From Lachnospiraceae bacterium (GTDB lineage: Bacteria > Bacillota > Clostridia > Lachnospirales > Lachnospiraceae): a DNA stretch of 48,852 nt. Both the position numbers and the translations under genes were made by a program. The notes beneath the pieces were generated by a model, which worked only from the letters and a program-made list of their open reading frames with translations, ran no database searches and was not told the origin of the DNA. Positions 1 through 46,267 of the stretch are shown piece by piece (within the stretch, counting starts at the first letter, position 1; every line of letters starts with the position of its first letter). The stretch covers positions 1-48,852 of the forward strand of contig JAQXFO010000018.1 of the NCBI GenBank assembly GCA_029005135.1, given 5' to 3'.

Positions 1-74
1 GACTGATTTATAGAATCTTAACCGCTTACGAAACAGAGAAAGGAGTCCCTCGAGGAGACTTCTTTTTTTGTGCC
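1..74 (+). repeat. Copy of the small-peptide unit 3' tail (truncated by window edge)
   Basis: Positions 1-60 are identical to 774-833, which is the 3' untranslated tail and terminator of the 19-residue peptide unit at 690-749. The match continues with small changes to about position 74. The window therefore appears to start inside the tail of another copy, whose coding part would lie to the left. That upstream part is not visible. Confidence 0.85.
40..69 (+). terminator. Intrinsic terminator of truncated peptide unit
   Basis: AGGAGTC at 41-47 pairs with GACTTCT at 57-63 with one G-U pair, followed by a T run to 69. It is the same hairpin as the terminator at 813-842. Confidence 0.8.
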
Positions 75-621: not shown

Positions 622-689
622 TATTATCATATCAGAAACAAGGAAACAACTTCCTATCATACCAATACCAAATGAAAGGAGATCCTGTT
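622..689 (+). promoter_or_regulatory. Conserved 5' region of peptide unit A (-10 like TATTAT plus leader)
   Basis: Positions 622-689 align without gaps to 2567-2634 with only 5 mismatches in 68 bases; further upstream the two loci share no clear alignment. The block starts with TATTAT, a plausible -10 element, and contains a small GGAA/TTCC inverted repeat. It ends with GAAAGGAG seven bases before the ATG. The abrupt start of similarity at TATTAT suggests promoter plus transcribed leader. Confidence 0.6.
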
Positions 690-749
690 ATGAAGATCAA
701 ATCATTCCTGAAAGACTATTACGAATCCTTCTACGGCGTTCGCTTCTGA
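690..749 (+). CDS. 19-residue peptide, copy A
   Basis: The frame encodes MKIKSFLKDYYESFYGVRF and stops with TGA. A good Shine-Dalgarno (AAAGGAG) precedes it and an intrinsic terminator closes the unit at 813-842. A second copy at 2635-2694 differs at six bases: three silent, one stop-codon swap (TGA/TAA) and two conservative replacements (K4R, S12A). That pattern fits selection on the peptide. The sequence is basic at the N-terminus and aromatic in the second half (YY, FY, RF), with no signal peptide or cysteine. It does not match any pheromone, toxin or leader peptide I know. The unit stands alone, pointing away from the genes on either side. Confidence 0.65.
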   Translation: MKIKSFLKDYYESFYGVRF

Positions 750-773
750 TTCACGACAGACGAACAGACGGCT

Positions 774-847
774 GACTGATTTATAGAATCTTAACCGCTT
801 ACGAAACAGAGAAAGGAGTCCCTCGAGGAGACTCCTTTTTTTGTGCC
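774..847 (+). repeat. Repeat of window-start tail sequence
   Basis: This is the 3' tail of peptide unit A. Positions 774-833 match 1-60 exactly and similarity continues through the T run. It shows that the cassette to the left of the window and unit A are recent duplicates, while the tail of unit B (2695-2790) is unrelated in sequence. Confidence 0.85.
813..842 (+). terminator. Intrinsic terminator of peptide unit A
   Basis: AGGAGTC (814-820) pairs with GACTCCT (830-836) around CCTCGAGGA, followed by seven T residues. It lies 64 bases after the peptide stop. Confidence 0.85.
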
Positions 848-957
848 TCCGCCTTCCTTCGGGCATTGTCATTGTCTCTCAGAAGCTGTCCAAAAGAACG
901 CCCCCAAAAGTGCCAATCACGCCAAATTCACGCTTCCGGCTCATTTTCGCCTTTTCT

Positions 958-2256
958 CTACGGCTGGCAGCGCTGACAGGGCTGATACCCCTGTGCGATC
1001 ACTTCCTCCCGCGTCCCGGTAAAATACGCCTTATTCTTCTCCTTCATTTCCTTCACACTGTCGCAAGCGGGCCTGTGAAAACGGTGCGTGTTCGTATTCA
1101 GGACGTACGACAGCTCTGACTCGCTGCCACTGTCACCGGCCGGAACGGCAGTGCCGCCAGCCTCCGACGGTTCCGTCTGTGAGGCCGGGGTATTTTCCTT
1201 TTCCAGGGCGATCGTCAGTTCATGCCCGTCGGAGGTGATGGTGATATCACCGTTTGTGTCTGTTCGGAAAACAGCCGCCCCCGCCGCTTCCAGGCGCTTC
1301 ACCACGCTGTTGTCCGGCAGGCCGTAGCTATTGCCGCTGCCCACGGAAATCACCGCGATTGACGGATCCACCGCCTGAAGGAAGGCCTCCGTCGTCCCGG
1401 TTTGGCTGCCGTGATGGGCAGTCTTGAGCACATCGGCCCGGAGATCCTCACCGCGAAGCAGCATCGCCTCCTCCGACGGCTGCTCCGCATCTCCGGTAAA
1501 GAGAAAGGACGTCTCCCCGAAGGTCACCTTCAGCACGATCGAGGTATCGTTGACGCTGCTGCCCTCGTTAACCCCCAGGATAGCGACGGAAGCCGCTCCC
1601 AGTGCATATTGATCGCCGACCGAAGGCACTGTGATGCCGCCGCCGTTTTGCTCCGCATAGGTTTTAAAATGCTGAAAGACCTCCCCCTCATAATCCGTCA
1701 CGGGGCACAGCGTCAGATCCGCCGTCGTGTAACTGAGCGCACCGGCGAGGCCGCCGATATGATCTTCATGGGCATGACTGGCCACAAGCAGGGACAGCTT
1801 CGGGACCTGAAGATCCTTCAGCACCGTATAGATCAGGCTCGAAGCTTCCCGGCCGCCGCCATCGATCAGCATATAGTGGCCATCGCAGCAGACAAGCGCG
1901 GCATCCGCCTGCCCCACGTCAAGAAAACGCACCCACAGGGAGGAACCCTCCGGCAGCGCTTCCGCCGTCGAATCCGGTTCCGTGGTATCTGCCGGCTCAA
2001 TGGTCGGGTTATCTGCCGGTTCCGATTCAGACGCCGTCTCCGATTCCGATTCAGACGCCGTCTCCGGTTCCGATGCCATCGCCGAAATCGCTGCTTCGGC
2101 CGAGATCGCCGGCTCCTTTTCCGCCGACGACACCTCACCGCGGCACCCGGACAGCATAAGACAGGCCGTGAAGACGACCGTCAGCAGGGCCGCCGCCGGC
2201 CGCCGGGCCTTCCCGGTTCGCTCTTTTCTGTTTTTTTGACAATATCTGATCGGCAT
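958..2256 (-). CDS. ComEC-like metallo-beta-lactamase-fold lipoprotein
   Basis: A secreted, membrane-anchored MBL-fold hydrolase of about 432 residues. The start at 2256 is chosen over an in-frame ATG at 2388, because a promoter-like pair (2317-2345) and a minus-strand hairpin lie between them. It opens with a basic region and a lipobox LSGC (Cys38), then a Ser/Glu-rich repetitive linker (ASESESETASESEP) encoded by imperfect DNA repeats near 2000-2090. The MBL domain carries SHAHEDH for metal binding, plus FTGDAE and AHHGS, as in the hydrolase domain of ComEC/Rec2. The C-terminus (about the last 50 residues, from YVLNTNTHRFHRP to CQRCQP) has a conserved C...CxxC pattern typical of small zinc-ribbon-like or Ada-like tails on Firmicutes nucleases. 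Substrate is unknown; extracellular nuclease or phosphodiesterase activity is plausible. Confidence 0.9.
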   Translation of the reverse strand: MPIRYCQKNRKERTGKARRPAAALLTVVFTACLMLSGCRGEVSSAEKEPAISAEAAISAMASEPETASESESETASESEPADNPTIEPADTTEPDSTAEALPEGSSLWVRFLDVGQADAALVCCDGHYMLIDGGGREASSLIYTVLKDLQVPKLSLLVASHAHEDHIGGLAGALSYTTADLTLCPVTDYEGEVFQHFKTYAEQNGGGITVPSVGDQYALGAASVAILGVNEGSSVNDTSIVLKVTFGETSFLFTGDAEQPSEEAMLLRGEDLRADVLKTAHHGSQTGTTEAFLQAVDPSIAVISVGSGNSYGLPDNSVVKRLEAAGAAVFRTDTNGDITITSDGHELTIALEKENTPASQTEPSEAGGTAVPAGDSGSESELSYVLNTNTHRFHRPACDSVKEMKEKNKAYFTGTREEVIAQGYQPCQRCQP

Positions 2257-2316
2257 ATCTCTGACTGTAACTCTGCTTTTTATCTTGAATACTTTGTTGA
2301 CCTGAAAACAAAAATC

Positions 2317-2345
2317 ATTATAGTGCCTGTCAACACGGATTTCCA
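2317..2345 (-). promoter_or_regulatory. Candidate promoter of the MBL lipoprotein
   Basis: On the minus strand TGGAAA (2345-2340) and TATAAT (2322-2317) are 17 bases apart. Transcription would start near 2310, about 55 bases before the chosen ATG at 2256. Confidence 0.55.
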
Positions 2346-2378
2346 GCTTCCGCTCCCGGGGAAAACGACAAAGAAAAC

Positions 2379-2406
2379 GGGAGCGCATCGTTCAGAATGC
2401 GCTCCC
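2379..2406 (-). terminator. GC-rich hairpin, weak minus-strand terminator
   Basis: GGGAGCGCAT (2379-2388) and ATGCGCTCCC (2397-2406) form a perfect 10 bp stem. On the minus strand it is followed by GTTTTCTTTG. It lies upstream of the MBL promoter and may insulate that gene from leftward transcripts. Confidence 0.5.
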
Positions 2407-2455
2407 GCTCACCGTGTCAGACCCGGCTGCCTGATCTCCTGATGCGATTCCCGTA

Positions 2456-2481
2456 CAAAAAGGGACTGCTGCGGCAGTCCC
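2456..2481 (-). terminator. Minus-strand intrinsic terminator
   Basis: GGGACTGC/GCAGTCCC form an 8 bp stem (2462-2481), with five T residues following on the minus strand (2461-2457). It probably stops leftward transcription from the YjiH-like gene at 2805-4142 before it reaches the MBL gene. Confidence 0.7.
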
Positions 2482-2566
2482 TTCCCGGCAAGATGCGTAT
2501 CTTATTATATCTTTTTTATATCATAATAAACTTCTTATAGTTTTTTACTTTTCCCTTCATTCGCGT

Positions 2567-2634
2567 TATTATCATATCAGAAACAAGGAAACAACTTCCA
2601 TTCATACCCATATCAAATGAAAGGAGAGCCTGTT
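2567..2634 (+). promoter_or_regulatory. Conserved 5' region of peptide unit B
   Basis: Gapless counterpart of 622-689, with TATTAT at 2567-2572. In this copy TTTACT lies 17 bases upstream and could serve as a -35. The Shine-Dalgarno GAAAGGAG is conserved. Confidence 0.6.
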
Positions 2635-2694
2635 ATGAAGATCAGATCATTCCTGAAAGATTATTACGAAGCCTTCTATGGTGTTCGCTTCTAA
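2635..2694 (+). CDS. 19-residue peptide, copy B
   Basis: The frame encodes MKIRSFLKDYYEAFYGVRF and stops with TAA. It aligns gaplessly with copy A (690-749) together with 68 bases of leader, 11 mismatches over 128 bases in total. Similarity ends at the stop codon, so the 3' tail and terminator (2758-2784) are different in sequence but equivalent in form. Independent conservation of leader, reading frame, length and a downstream terminator supports a real gene. Function is unknown; a signalling peptide, small membrane-binding peptide or leader function are all possible. Confidence 0.65.
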   Translation: MKIRSFLKDYYEAFYGVRF

Positions 2695-2804: not shown

Positions 2805-4142
2805 TCAGAATATCAGCTGCGCAATGGGGCAGACGATCAGGAAGGAAATGATCGTGCGCTCGAGGTAGATCACGAACATCTCAAAGAGGTTGACCGGCAG
2901 TCTGGAAGCCAGGATGAGGCCGCCGACCTCCGACAGGTAGAGCACCTGCGTGACGGAGACGACCGCCACGATAAAGCGGGTCATGGCACTGACACCGGCG
3001 CCGGCGATGAGGATCGACGGTGTGAACATATCCACAAAGCCGACAATGACGGTAGACGCCGCCTCCGCCGCTTCCGGCACCCCGAGGAGGGACAGGAAGG
3101 GCTTGAAGGGCAGGCCGAGCCAGGTGAAGACCGGCGTTTTGTTGGCGATCAGAAGGGCGATCGTGCCGATGCACATGACGGTAGGCAGCACACCGAACCA
3201 CATTTTGGCGGAATTCAGTACCCCGCTTTTCAGGAATTCGCCCACGCCTTTGTGTTCGGAGACACGCTTCATCGCCAGGGCCATGCCGTATGCACGGCTG
3301 TTCTTGTATCCCGCCGGGATCGTTTCCGCCATCTTCCGTCCTTCCTTCAGATAGGTATCCGGCTTACGGCTGAGCGGCCATATCCGCGGACAGATCAGGG
3401 CGCAGACAATACCCACCAGGACGATCACCAGATAGTAGATGCCGAACATTTCCACAAGTCCCACCTGGTCGAGCACGACAAGGCTGAAGGTGATGGAGAC
3501 CGCCGAAAATGTCGTCGCGATGACGGAGGCCTCCCGGGCGGAATAAAAACCGCCCTCATACTGGTTGCAGGTTAACATAACACCAAGGGTGCCGTCACCG
3601 ATCCAGGAAGTGATGCAGTCGACCGCCGCGCGGCCCGGCACCGTGAACACCGGGCGCATGATCTTCGTCAGCAGCGCTCCGATGTATTCCAGCAGACCGA
3701 AGTCCAGAAGGAGCGGCAGCAGCAGCCCCGCCATGACGAAGATAATGACCAGCGTACACAGAAGGTCATTGAGAATAAAACCGCCCTGATCACCGTCGGC
3801 TATCACCGCAAGCCACCCTGTCTCCGGTCCAAGATAGGCAATCCAGCAAAACAGGCAGCCCAGCACGCGCACCACGGTCCAGAAGGGCGTCGTCGAAAAG
3901 GTCTCCTTCAAAAGGCGGCTGTTCTCGATGAAGGCCGGCCCGAAAAGGGCGAAAACCGACATCACAGCCGAGACCGTCAGAATCAGCGTACACAGAAGAG
4001 GCAGGTAAGCACCGACCGCACCGGCAATGATATCGGCGATGATTTTGACGATCACCGTCCAGCTGCCGTCGTATTTCACCGGAATCATAAAGAGAAGGAC
4101 ACCGGCCAGGGAGGGAATGACAAAGAGACATTTGTTTTTCAT
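2805..4142 (-). CDS. YjiH-like multi-pass membrane protein (nucleoside-recognition 'Gate' type)
   Basis: A 445-residue protein with about ten hydrophobic helices. It resembles the YjiH family, whose members contain nucleoside-recognition/Gate domains related to the spore maturation proteins SpmA and SpmB. Supporting features are the long helical repeats with GDGTLGVMLTCNQYEGGFYSAREASVIATTFSAVS in the centre (key block GxYSxREASVIAT) and FVDMFTPSILIAGAGVS near the C-terminus. The transported solute is unknown for this family. The gene stands alone on the minus strand, with a terminator at 2456-2481 downstream and thioredoxin divergently transcribed upstream. Confidence 0.8.
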   Translation of the reverse strand: MKNKCLFVIPSLAGVLLFMIPVKYDGSWTVIVKIIADIIAGAVGAYLPLLCTLILTVSAVMSVFALFGPAFIENSRLLKETFSTTPFWTVVRVLGCLFCWIAYLGPETGWLAVIADGDQGGFILNDLLCTLVIIFVMAGLLLPLLLDFGLLEYIGALLTKIMRPVFTVPGRAAVDCITSWIGDGTLGVMLTCNQYEGGFYSAREASVIATTFSAVSITFSLVVLDQVGLVEMFGIYYLVIVLVGIVCALICPRIWPLSRKPDTYLKEGRKMAETIPAGYKNSRAYGMALAMKRVSEHKGVGEFLKSGVLNSAKMWFGVLPTVMCIGTIALLIANKTPVFTWLGLPFKPFLSLLGVPEAAEAASTVIVGFVDMFTPSILIAGAGVSAMTRFIVAVVSVTQVLYLSEVGGLILASRLPVNLFEMFVIYLERTIISFLIVCPIAQLIF

Positions 4143-25989: not shown

Positions 25990-26529
25990 TTATACCGCCG
26001 CATCCGTCTGCCGCGGCACGAGTCTGGCGATCAATGTCAACACGCCGTAGGAAATCACGATGTCAATCGGCAGCATGATGGCATTGGACAGGATGCGGCC
26101 CGGCAGCATGGCCCAGAGCCCTCTGCCGTTCAGGATCAGAAGCCAGAGGCTGTTGAGTCCGATATTGACAAAAAGCTTCACCAGGAACTGGGCCAGAGCG
26201 ATCCTTGCCCAGCTGATCCGGCGGCGGTACAGGATCCCGCCGTAAATGGCGGCACCGACCATCGCCGACAGCGTAAAGCCGGGGAAAAAGGTGCCGGTCG
26301 GCACCAGCATGTATTTGACGATATCCATGACGCCGCCAAAGACGGCGCCGGCAGCCGGACCGAAGAGGAAGTCCACGATCAGGTTCGGCGTAAAGGAAAA
26401 GCCGATACGGATATAGTCACCGATCTTAATCGTGGCCACGTAGTTGAGAACAATGGCCAGTGCGCCCATCATGCCGCAGATGGCCACGGTTTTGACACTT
26501 TTGAATTCCCGCAGTGATTGTCTGAACAT
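25990..26529 (-). CDS. folT: ECF transporter S-component, folate (FolT-like)
   Basis: A 179-residue membrane protein with about six helices. It resembles the substrate-binding S-component of energy-coupling-factor folate transporters. KTVAICGMMGALAIVLNYV provides the A-x-x-x-A helix 1 that contacts the EcfT scaffold, and GFSFTPNLIVDFLFGPAAGAVFGGVMDIV is the conserved substrate-binding region. The start at 26529 is set by AAAGGAGGG upstream. The identification as FolT rests mainly on the tetrahydrofolate riboswitch directly upstream. The shared EcfA/EcfA'/EcfT module is not in this window. Confidence 0.88.
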   Translation of the reverse strand: MFRQSLREFKSVKTVAICGMMGALAIVLNYVATIKIGDYIRIGFSFTPNLIVDFLFGPAAGAVFGGVMDIVKYMLVPTGTFFPGFTLSAMVGAAIYGGILYRRRISWARIALAQFLVKLFVNIGLNSLWLLILNGRGLWAMLPGRILSNAIMLPIDIVISYGVLTLIARLVPRQTDAAV

Positions 26530-26531
26530 AA

Positions 26532-26585
26532 AAAAGCCCTCCTTTTTGCAGCATTTTTCCACGAAACCACATAAAGGGGGCTTTT
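26532..26585 (-). promoter_or_regulatory. Expression platform: hairpin burying the folT Shine-Dalgarno
   Basis: AAAAGCCCCCTTT pairs with AAAGGAGGGCTTTT with one bulge, and T residues follow. The hairpin includes the AAAGGAGG ribosome-binding site, so it can act as terminator and as translation block. Confidence 0.75.
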
Positions 26586-26602
26586 ACGCCTTCATTATGC
26601 AG

Positions 26603-26702
26603 CAGCGGGATGCGGAAACGACACCGCAAGGGGCCTGCCCTTTTCGTCCGTCTGTCAACTCCCTGTACAGACAGCACTTAACGCGTCGGATCCTACTCTG
26701 CT
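26603..26702 (-). promoter_or_regulatory. Tetrahydrofolate (THF) riboswitch
   Basis: Read on the minus strand, the conserved blocks occur in the class order: AGAGTAGG, GCGTTAAGTG, ACAGGGAGTTG, GGACGAAAAGGGC, CCTTGCGGTGTCG and CCGCATCCCGCT. The ends pair GCAG/CTGC as P1. It lies between hicB and folT and should lower folT expression when reduced folates are abundant. Confidence 0.92.
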
Positions 26703-45391: not shown

Positions 45392-46021
45392 TCACCGTTT
45401 TACCAGAGAACTGATTCTCTTGTAAAGGAAAAATGTCAAAACCGACGTGGCCAGGCCCTTGATCAGATTGAAGGGAGCCACACACAGAGCCACAAAGCCG
45501 AAGACACTGTCGACACTGCCGTTGACAGCCGTACCGGCAGCCACGATCGCTTCCATCCCGCCGAAGGCCGCGGCATACATCGGCAGCAGCACGAAGGCAT
45601 TGAGAAGCATACCGGCCAGTGTCATCGTCAGGGTACCGGCGATCATGCCGAGGACGGCGCCCTTGCGGGTTCTCTTGAAGTGGTAAATGATGCCGGCCGG
45701 CAGGACGAGGGCGCAGCCGACGGCAAAATTCGCCACCTCGCCGACAAAGGCGGTGGAGGTGCCCTTAATGATAAGCTTAACGAGAATCTTGACCAGCTCG
45801 ATGACCATGCCGGACACCGGACCGAGGGCAAAGGTACCGATCAGAACCGGAACCTCACTGAAATCCAGCTCATAGAAAGGCGGAGCGATAAAGGGCAGCG
45901 GGAACTCAAAATACATCAGTACCGCCGCCACGGCGCTGAGCATACCGATCAGAGCGACCTTTCTGACATTGAGGCTTTTGCCGGCCTTGTTATCTGTTTT
46001 GACTGCTGTTGTTTCTGACAT
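45392..46021 (-). CDS. ribU: ECF transporter S-component, riboflavin
   Basis: A 209-residue membrane protein with six helices. It resembles RibU, the riboflavin-binding S-component of ECF transporters. VRKVALIGMLSAVAAVLMYFEFPLPF is the N-terminal A-x-x-x-A helix plus first loop. DFSEVPVLIGTFALGPVSGMVIELVKILV is the conserved binding block. GAGGAGGATTTCATC precedes the ATG at 46021. An FMN riboswitch with its own terminator is directly upstream, which fixes the substrate class. The EcfA/T energising module is elsewhere. Confidence 0.95.
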   Translation of the reverse strand: MSETTAVKTDNKAGKSLNVRKVALIGMLSAVAAVLMYFEFPLPFIAPPFYELDFSEVPVLIGTFALGPVSGMVIELVKILVKLIIKGTSTAFVGEVANFAVGCALVLPAGIIYHFKRTRKGAVLGMIAGTLTMTLAGMLLNAFVLLPMYAAAFGGMEAIVAAGTAVNGSVDSVFGFVALCVAPFNLIKGLATSVLTFFLYKRISSLVKR

Positions 46022-46067
46022 GATGAAATCCTCCTCATATAAAATGAAATGAAACAGGGATTCCACG

Positions 46068-46129: not shown

Positions 46130-46267
46130 GATGCTCTTCTTTCATCCAGACTATACTGTCGGTATCGGAATTCACTGTCGTGTCACCGATTCGGCCCGAA
46201 GGCTCGCGGACTATACCGCCGGTACGGAATTACACCCGTCCCCGAAGAACCCTGTTAAGTTGCATCA
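46130..46267 (-). promoter_or_regulatory. FMN riboswitch (RFN element)
   Basis: On the minus strand the RFN landmarks appear in order: TTCGGGGACGGGTG, AATTCCGTACCGGCGGTATAG (first part), a P4 arm, GGTGACACGACAGTGAATTCCGATACCGACAGTATAGTC (in pieces) and GGATGAAAGAAGA. GATGC and GCATC at the ends extend stem P1. FMN binding should favour the terminator at 46068-46097 and reduce ribU expression. Confidence 0.95.

Follow-up and report, generated by a model that had tools for sequence, protein, structure and literature searches.

Do the short, repeated units near the start of contig G000:C18 each form a gene for a 19-residue peptide, as the original prediction proposed, or is the reading frame incidental to an RNA or to a copied piece of DNA? 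The window studied is the whole contig (48,852 bases), part of a genome of 2.15 Mb in 88 contigs. Gene callers apply length cut-offs that exclude peptides of 19 residues, which makes a well-marked, multi-copy orphan of this kind a useful test case for how many tiny genes go missed.

Organisation of the repeated units

Units 1 (599–842) and 2 (2544–2784) both lie on the plus strand among minus-strand genes, and each comprises a promoter, a leader, a 19-codon frame and a terminator hairpin. A consensus scan identified the promoters TTCACA-17-TATTAT (599–627, 10/12) and TTTACT-17-TATTAT (2544–2572, 9/12). Transcription of unit 1 would start near 634, and its leader (634–689) differs from that of unit 2 (2579–2634) at 5 of 56 positions; the core of the unit 1 leader, ATCAGAAACAAGGAA (631–645), is common to phage leaders. 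The Shine-Dalgarno (SD) sequence AAAGGAG is present in both copies (675–681 and 2620–2626), in each case eight bases 5' of the ATG. The frames, MKIKSFLKDYYESFYGVRF (690–749) and MKIRSFLKDYYEAFYGVRF (2635–2694), were read from the sequence and compared with each other; their product is MKI[K/R]SFLKDYYE[S/A]FYGVRF, 19 residues in both units. Folding placed terminator hairpins at 812–842 and 2758–2784, each followed by seven T in the sequence and beginning about 62–63 bases past the stop codon; a simple terminator scan called these hairpins on the minus strand only. The original prediction had given the same two frames, an SD for each unit and a terminator about 64 bases downstream, all of which were confirmed. 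The marks of a stand-alone gene (own promoter, SD, start, stop, terminator and a frame kept between copies) can all be read at this locus. SD-led tiny frames are in themselves not rare: the plus strand of the contig has others, for example of 3, 9, 22 and 28 codons.

The neighbouring minus-strand genes are a 106-codon frame without Pfam match (208–528) and, as assigned by Pfam, those for a metallo-beta-lactamase-fold (Lactamase_B) protein (958–2388) and a Gate-domain protein (2805–4142). An attenuator leader peptide was ruled out, because the next genes (958–2388 and 2805–4142) are on the minus strand and no same-strand gene lies downstream. The Lactamase_B-fold protein has a C-terminal Ada-type metal-binding match, and its true start may be near 2255, with a lipoprotein-like signal and a promoter match just upstream (2345–2317). 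Between unit 2 and this gene are minus-strand hairpins with T runs, one at 2455–2490 (recognised by eye) and one at 2375–2410 (from the terminator scan); RNA from the Gate gene might cross unit 2 in antisense and then end at these hairpins. The Gate gene is present in 3 of the 41 other genomes of the genus, one copy being partial with a stop, and no unit adjoins it in those three genomes.

The original prediction had missed a third unit, which makes the observation slightly larger than first reported. Positions 1–74 (+) are 99% identical to 774–847 and so represent the 3' end and terminator of a unit 0 that the contig edge truncates and whose frame is absent from the assembly examined. A DNA search of the other contigs of the same genome, in which 7 of 11 candidate places were scored, found no front half of unit 0; a collapsed near-identical copy is likely to lie behind the contig break.

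Conservation between units 1 and 2

The gap-free alignment of the two units between the -10 box and the stop codon spans 128 columns and contains 11 mismatches, as first described, and the BLAST E value of 6.7e-49 for copy 2 places the likeness far above chance. By region, mismatches number 0/6 from the -10 box to the transcript start, 5/56 in the 5'UTR (8.9%) and 6/60 in frame and stop (10.0%). An ungapped comparison gave differences at 42/59 positions upstream, 9/29 in the promoter, 31/62 in the 3'UTR and 19/36 in the terminator region. A three-segment fit placed the conserved block from 615 or 622 to 747, with support for its end at 744–753, an end that coincides with the stop codon (747–749).

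Four of the six changes in the frame are silent, as had been claimed, when the stop swap is counted (D9, Y15, G16 and TGA/TAA), and the other two, K4R and S13A, are conservative. The silent changes are not proof of coding by themselves: in 9.4% of simulated trials, 5 random substitutions altered no more than two residues and introduced no stop. Synonymous sites are almost as conserved as the leader, which points to constraint or homogenisation also at the RNA or DNA level.

The 3'UTRs of units 1 and 2, judged by their identity of 31/62 (50%) against a mean of 16.6 and a maximum of 31 in 5,000 shuffles, are still related. Two histories would explain this: an old duplication with selection on the front, or later homogenisation of the front. 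Leader and frame might also form a cassette that was duplicated or converted as a relic, in which neither RNA nor peptide matters. The 99% identity between the tails of units 0 and 1 indicates that copying was recent in part, and such a relic would also fit the few synonymous changes and the presence of the units in one genome only among those searched. We nevertheless think it improbable, given that neither unit has lost its promoter, SD, stop or terminator and that the 3'UTRs, related yet 50% diverged, make the duplication of units 1 and 2 an old one unless the front was converted.

Search for relatives

The original prediction knew of no family for the peptide, and none was found by peptide, DNA, core-pattern or profile searches. 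The genome samples used overlap, each species is represented by a single genome, and the draw of 397 genomes covers 334 genera. The translated search of the 19 residues that had been proposed as a check returned only the two own copies in 61 genomes (own and 60 others). With the unit DNA, only three places, all on the own contig, were identified in 99 genomes (own and 98 others), in a search that gives some match at E <=10 in every genome; the best match elsewhere (G076, E 5.2e-4) is within a coding-like stretch and was taken as chance. A degenerate pattern of the peptide core with at most one mismatch, applied to 397 genomes (own and 396 others), found the own two copies and 22 other places, none of them peptide-like in form. 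All 22 have one mismatch, and 16 lie within open frames of at least 217 codons; L036, L042, L046, L047, L049 and L051, in open frames of at most 46 codons or broken by stops, were rejected as not of the peptide's form. The core occurred at five places in genome contigs, all within open frames of 387–522 codons, and FYGVRF-stop with one mismatch gave six places beyond the own units in 42 genomes of the genus, none with the peptide.

A profile of both units, run with strict filters over 395 genomes (own and 394 others), scored the own two at 134–135 bits and the next match at 23 bits, some match at E <=1 being obtained in 282 genomes. Eleven weak profile matches were read: seven marked SD-led starts belonging to longer genes, L413, L414 and L417 were without such a start, and L429, with a 25-residue frame (MKSISFLKDG...) overlapping an open frame of 316 codons, was taken as chance. 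The 45-aa in-frame extension had no relative in the protein database, and plasmids gave no match. Protein collections rarely keep frames this short. Within the genomes searched, the putative gene is restricted to this lineage; the lack among them of a homologue for a cross-species selection test counts against reading it as a micropeptide gene.

A promoter-leader module shared with phages

Comparison with viral sequences showed that the leader is not confined to this peptide. Two phage records gave the first hint of a shared leader, and the arrangement of a -10 box, three bases and ATCAGAAACAAGG stands before unrelated phage genes too. Viral contigs contain at least 120 stretches with the 15-base core (reversed-pattern control, 118). 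A -10 box with at most one mismatch lies 0–8 bases from the core in 20 of the 118 usable matches among those listed (control, 5 of 116) and exactly three bases from it in 13 of the 118 (control, 0 of 116), near-duplicate contigs, for example, L132 and L146, being included among the core matches.

Outside the own genome, a set of 21 places with -10 box and core was assembled, of which 20 are phage or viral and one is bacterial; L146 repeats L132, L233 repeats L155, and three frames run off the sequence. A -35 box with at most two mismatches is present 16–18 bases 5' of the -10 box at 20 of these places, counted as the best of four spacings and without a shuffle control, and is an exact TTGACA in 11. 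An SD-led start follows the leader in 19/21, the start at L175 being a doubtful TTG. The bacterial place, L106, is one of the two misses, yet has a GGGGG-led 208-codon frame. Two leader copies (L136 and L234) occur on one 48-kb contig. Eight downstream products were compared with PHROGs, resulting in one amidoligase family, two families of unknown function and five without a match. The consensus of 17 leaders (leaving out L106, L146, L233 and L405) is TTGACA, about 17 bases, TATAaT, three bases and ATCAGAAACAAGGAAaACa, in which the -10 box and core were fixed by the search, and the -35 box and the bases past the core were not. A recurrent phage module, TTGACA-17-TATAAT/TATACT-N3-ATCAGAAACAAGGAAAAC, is found before unrelated genes (L103, L104, L115, L116, L117, L132, L136, L155, L167, L170, L175, L177, L179, L234, L406, L407 and L408).

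The exact 33-base leader was absent from the viral contigs searched. With up to two mismatches it was found in 8 of 397 genomes, the own included, and only L106 among the eight other places was promoter-like. The -10 box plus leader with one mismatch occurred in 8 of 200 genomes, again including the own, with seven other places; at three of these (L120, L123 and L125) an SD-led start follows. In the genus outside the own genome there are 14 leader places, all with two mismatches; no leader match with fewer was found in the 41 other genus genomes, and none of the 14 places has a -35 box with fewer than two mismatches.

The own genome holds 24 places within two mismatches of ATCAGAAACAAGGA, and three of these have a -10 box (at most one mismatch) at three bases, namely units 1 and 2 and G000:C26:15780-15801 (L127, L366). 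The last of these is intergenic; its TTCACA-17-TATGAT and leader are followed by 13 codons reading MTRISPDIHLVII and then by a hairpin with T after it, and the 19-residue peptide is absent. On these comparisons, the leader is a general promoter and transcript-start module and not part of a peptide-specific unit; it also precedes unrelated genes, so that its conservation says little about the 19-residue peptide. The titles returned by a literature search with the leader string held no description of it, which does not prove the leader undescribed.

RNA folding and properties of the peptide

According to the original prediction, copies that keep the leader and break the frame would argue for a small RNA. 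The G000:C26 copy does keep promoter, leader and terminator without the frame; taken alone it does not favour a small RNA, because phages keep the leader before ordinary genes. Such a regulatory RNA of about 210 nt, with the frame incidental or secondary, would act through its conserved leader and frame, either by pairing with targets or by protein binding. Leader and frame are about equally conserved, and the two transcripts are more stably folded than shuffled sequences (z -2.85 and -2.39, to which the terminator hairpin contributes), but a conserved block ending at the stop codon, phage leaders that precede SD-led starts and the absence of any Rfam match for the units at gathering score leave it rather unlikely. 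Elsewhere on the contig, Rfam identified only an FMN riboswitch (46130–46253, minus strand) and a THF riboswitch (26601–26702, minus strand), each just upstream of a same-strand gene for an ECF transporter substrate component (45392–46066 and 25990–26562, respectively).

Pairing occupies most of the ribosome-binding site in the fold model, which gives unpaired values of 0.18 and 0.23. The unit 1 leader folds at -9.2 versus -4.5 for shuffles, whereas that of unit 2, at -7.5 versus a mean of -6.6, hardly beats them, so that gating of translation is uncertain. A mostly paired SD on an mRNA of about 210 nt, repeated copies and a restricted distribution would suit a type I toxin-like module, that is, an mRNA for a toxic micropeptide with a sequestered ribosome-binding site under antisense RNA control; E. 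coli zorO-orzO, a duplicated type I locus, provides a precedent. Two sequence tests speak against this idea, which we consider to have only a slim chance: antisense promoters on the 3' sides did not rise above background, the best scoring 9 and 8 of 12 where shuffled sequences reached maxima of 8.0 and 8.0 on average, and the mean hydrophobicity of residues 1–15 is about zero, indicating no membrane-spanning stretch of the kind a hydrophobic toxin would have.

The hydrophobic residues I3, F6, L7, Y10, Y11, F14 and Y15 fall at helical spacing. This accords with the earlier suggestion of a signal or membrane-active peptide, but the helical hydrophobic moments of 0.43 and 0.46 are matched by 6.1% and 9.1% of shuffles, and the suggestion is at most hinted at by the data. 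The small size, the aromatic character, the monocistronic layout and the several copies would suit a secreted or cell-surface signal peptide, or its precursor. It appears very improbable in view of the lack of a signal sequence by eye and of any peptide transporter, maturation enzyme or RRNPP/Rgg-type receptor by Pfam in 38 scanned frames of the contig, though a partner gene may lie farther away. A RiPP precursor was rejected on the same absence of a maturation enzyme among the 38 frames scanned, on a contig that ends beside unit 0.

Interpretation and comparison with known systems

The best reading is a lineage-specific micropeptide gene, with a regulatory RNA next, and we put it forward tentatively, as an explanation that in its entirety falls a little short of an even chance. 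The step in which the 19-residue frame is translated is, judging from sequence features, probable. A translated peptide is preferred because conservation ends with the stop codon and because the leader precedes SD-led starts at most of the places compared outside the own genome. Each unit would be a one-gene mini-mRNA of about 210 nt, with the architecture taken from the sequence and its transcription and translation presumed. A sigma-A-type promoter would start the transcript near the A of AGAAACAAGG, the short phage-type leader would carry AAAGGAG, partly paired in a small hairpin, and the 19 codons would be translated ahead of the terminator. The peptide may fold as a short, aromatic-rich amphipathic helix with the seven hydrophobic residues on one side and a GVRF tail, and might conceivably bind a membrane surface or a partner protein. 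Extra copies could raise the dose or permit separate control.

The reusable leader is a wider lead than the peptide. Being common to phages and unrelated host genes, it could be used to search these bacteria for start sites and for small genes that have gone unnoticed. A bolder proposal, which we regard as quite doubtful, is that TTGACA-17-TATAAT/TATACT-N3-ATCAGAAACAAGGAAAAC constitutes a reusable phage and host expression system, here fronting host micropeptides at at least three sites, which would act during expression of phage genes with the same leader or compete with those genes for a leader-reading factor; no description of such a system was found.

Tandem or duplicated type I toxin loci include Ldr and Ibs. 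The units resemble loci of this type, zorO-orzO among them, in their short mRNA, sequestered SD and repeated copies; unlike them, they have no hydrophobic span and no antisense promoter above background. Phenol-soluble modulins, at about 20 residues and with helix-like hydrophobic spacing, are alike in length and spacing, whereas the present peptide is aromatic and not aliphatic and its moment is not significant against shuffles. C-terminal tails of Peripla_BP_2 (PF01497) proteins carry KDYYExFYG or a one-change variant, here found in a stand-alone peptide and not in a domain tail. A KDYYExFYG-like core was seen near the C-end of long frames at L038, L039, L040, L055, L057 and L059, and the three proteins tested (L039, L057 and L059) all belonged to PF01497; one PF01497 protein of the own genome was read and is without the core. 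We treat this likeness as a curiosity, because the family is so large and the search pattern forces the match. The phage leaders (Roseburia phage Shimadzu, LR596903, 5' of orf29; MT835516) have the same -10 box, three bases, core, SD and start. In phages the leader is followed by genes of 32 to 305 codons (the L175 start being doubtful), with mostly 39–54 bases from core to ATG, whereas here that distance is 59 bases and a 19-codon frame and a terminator follow.
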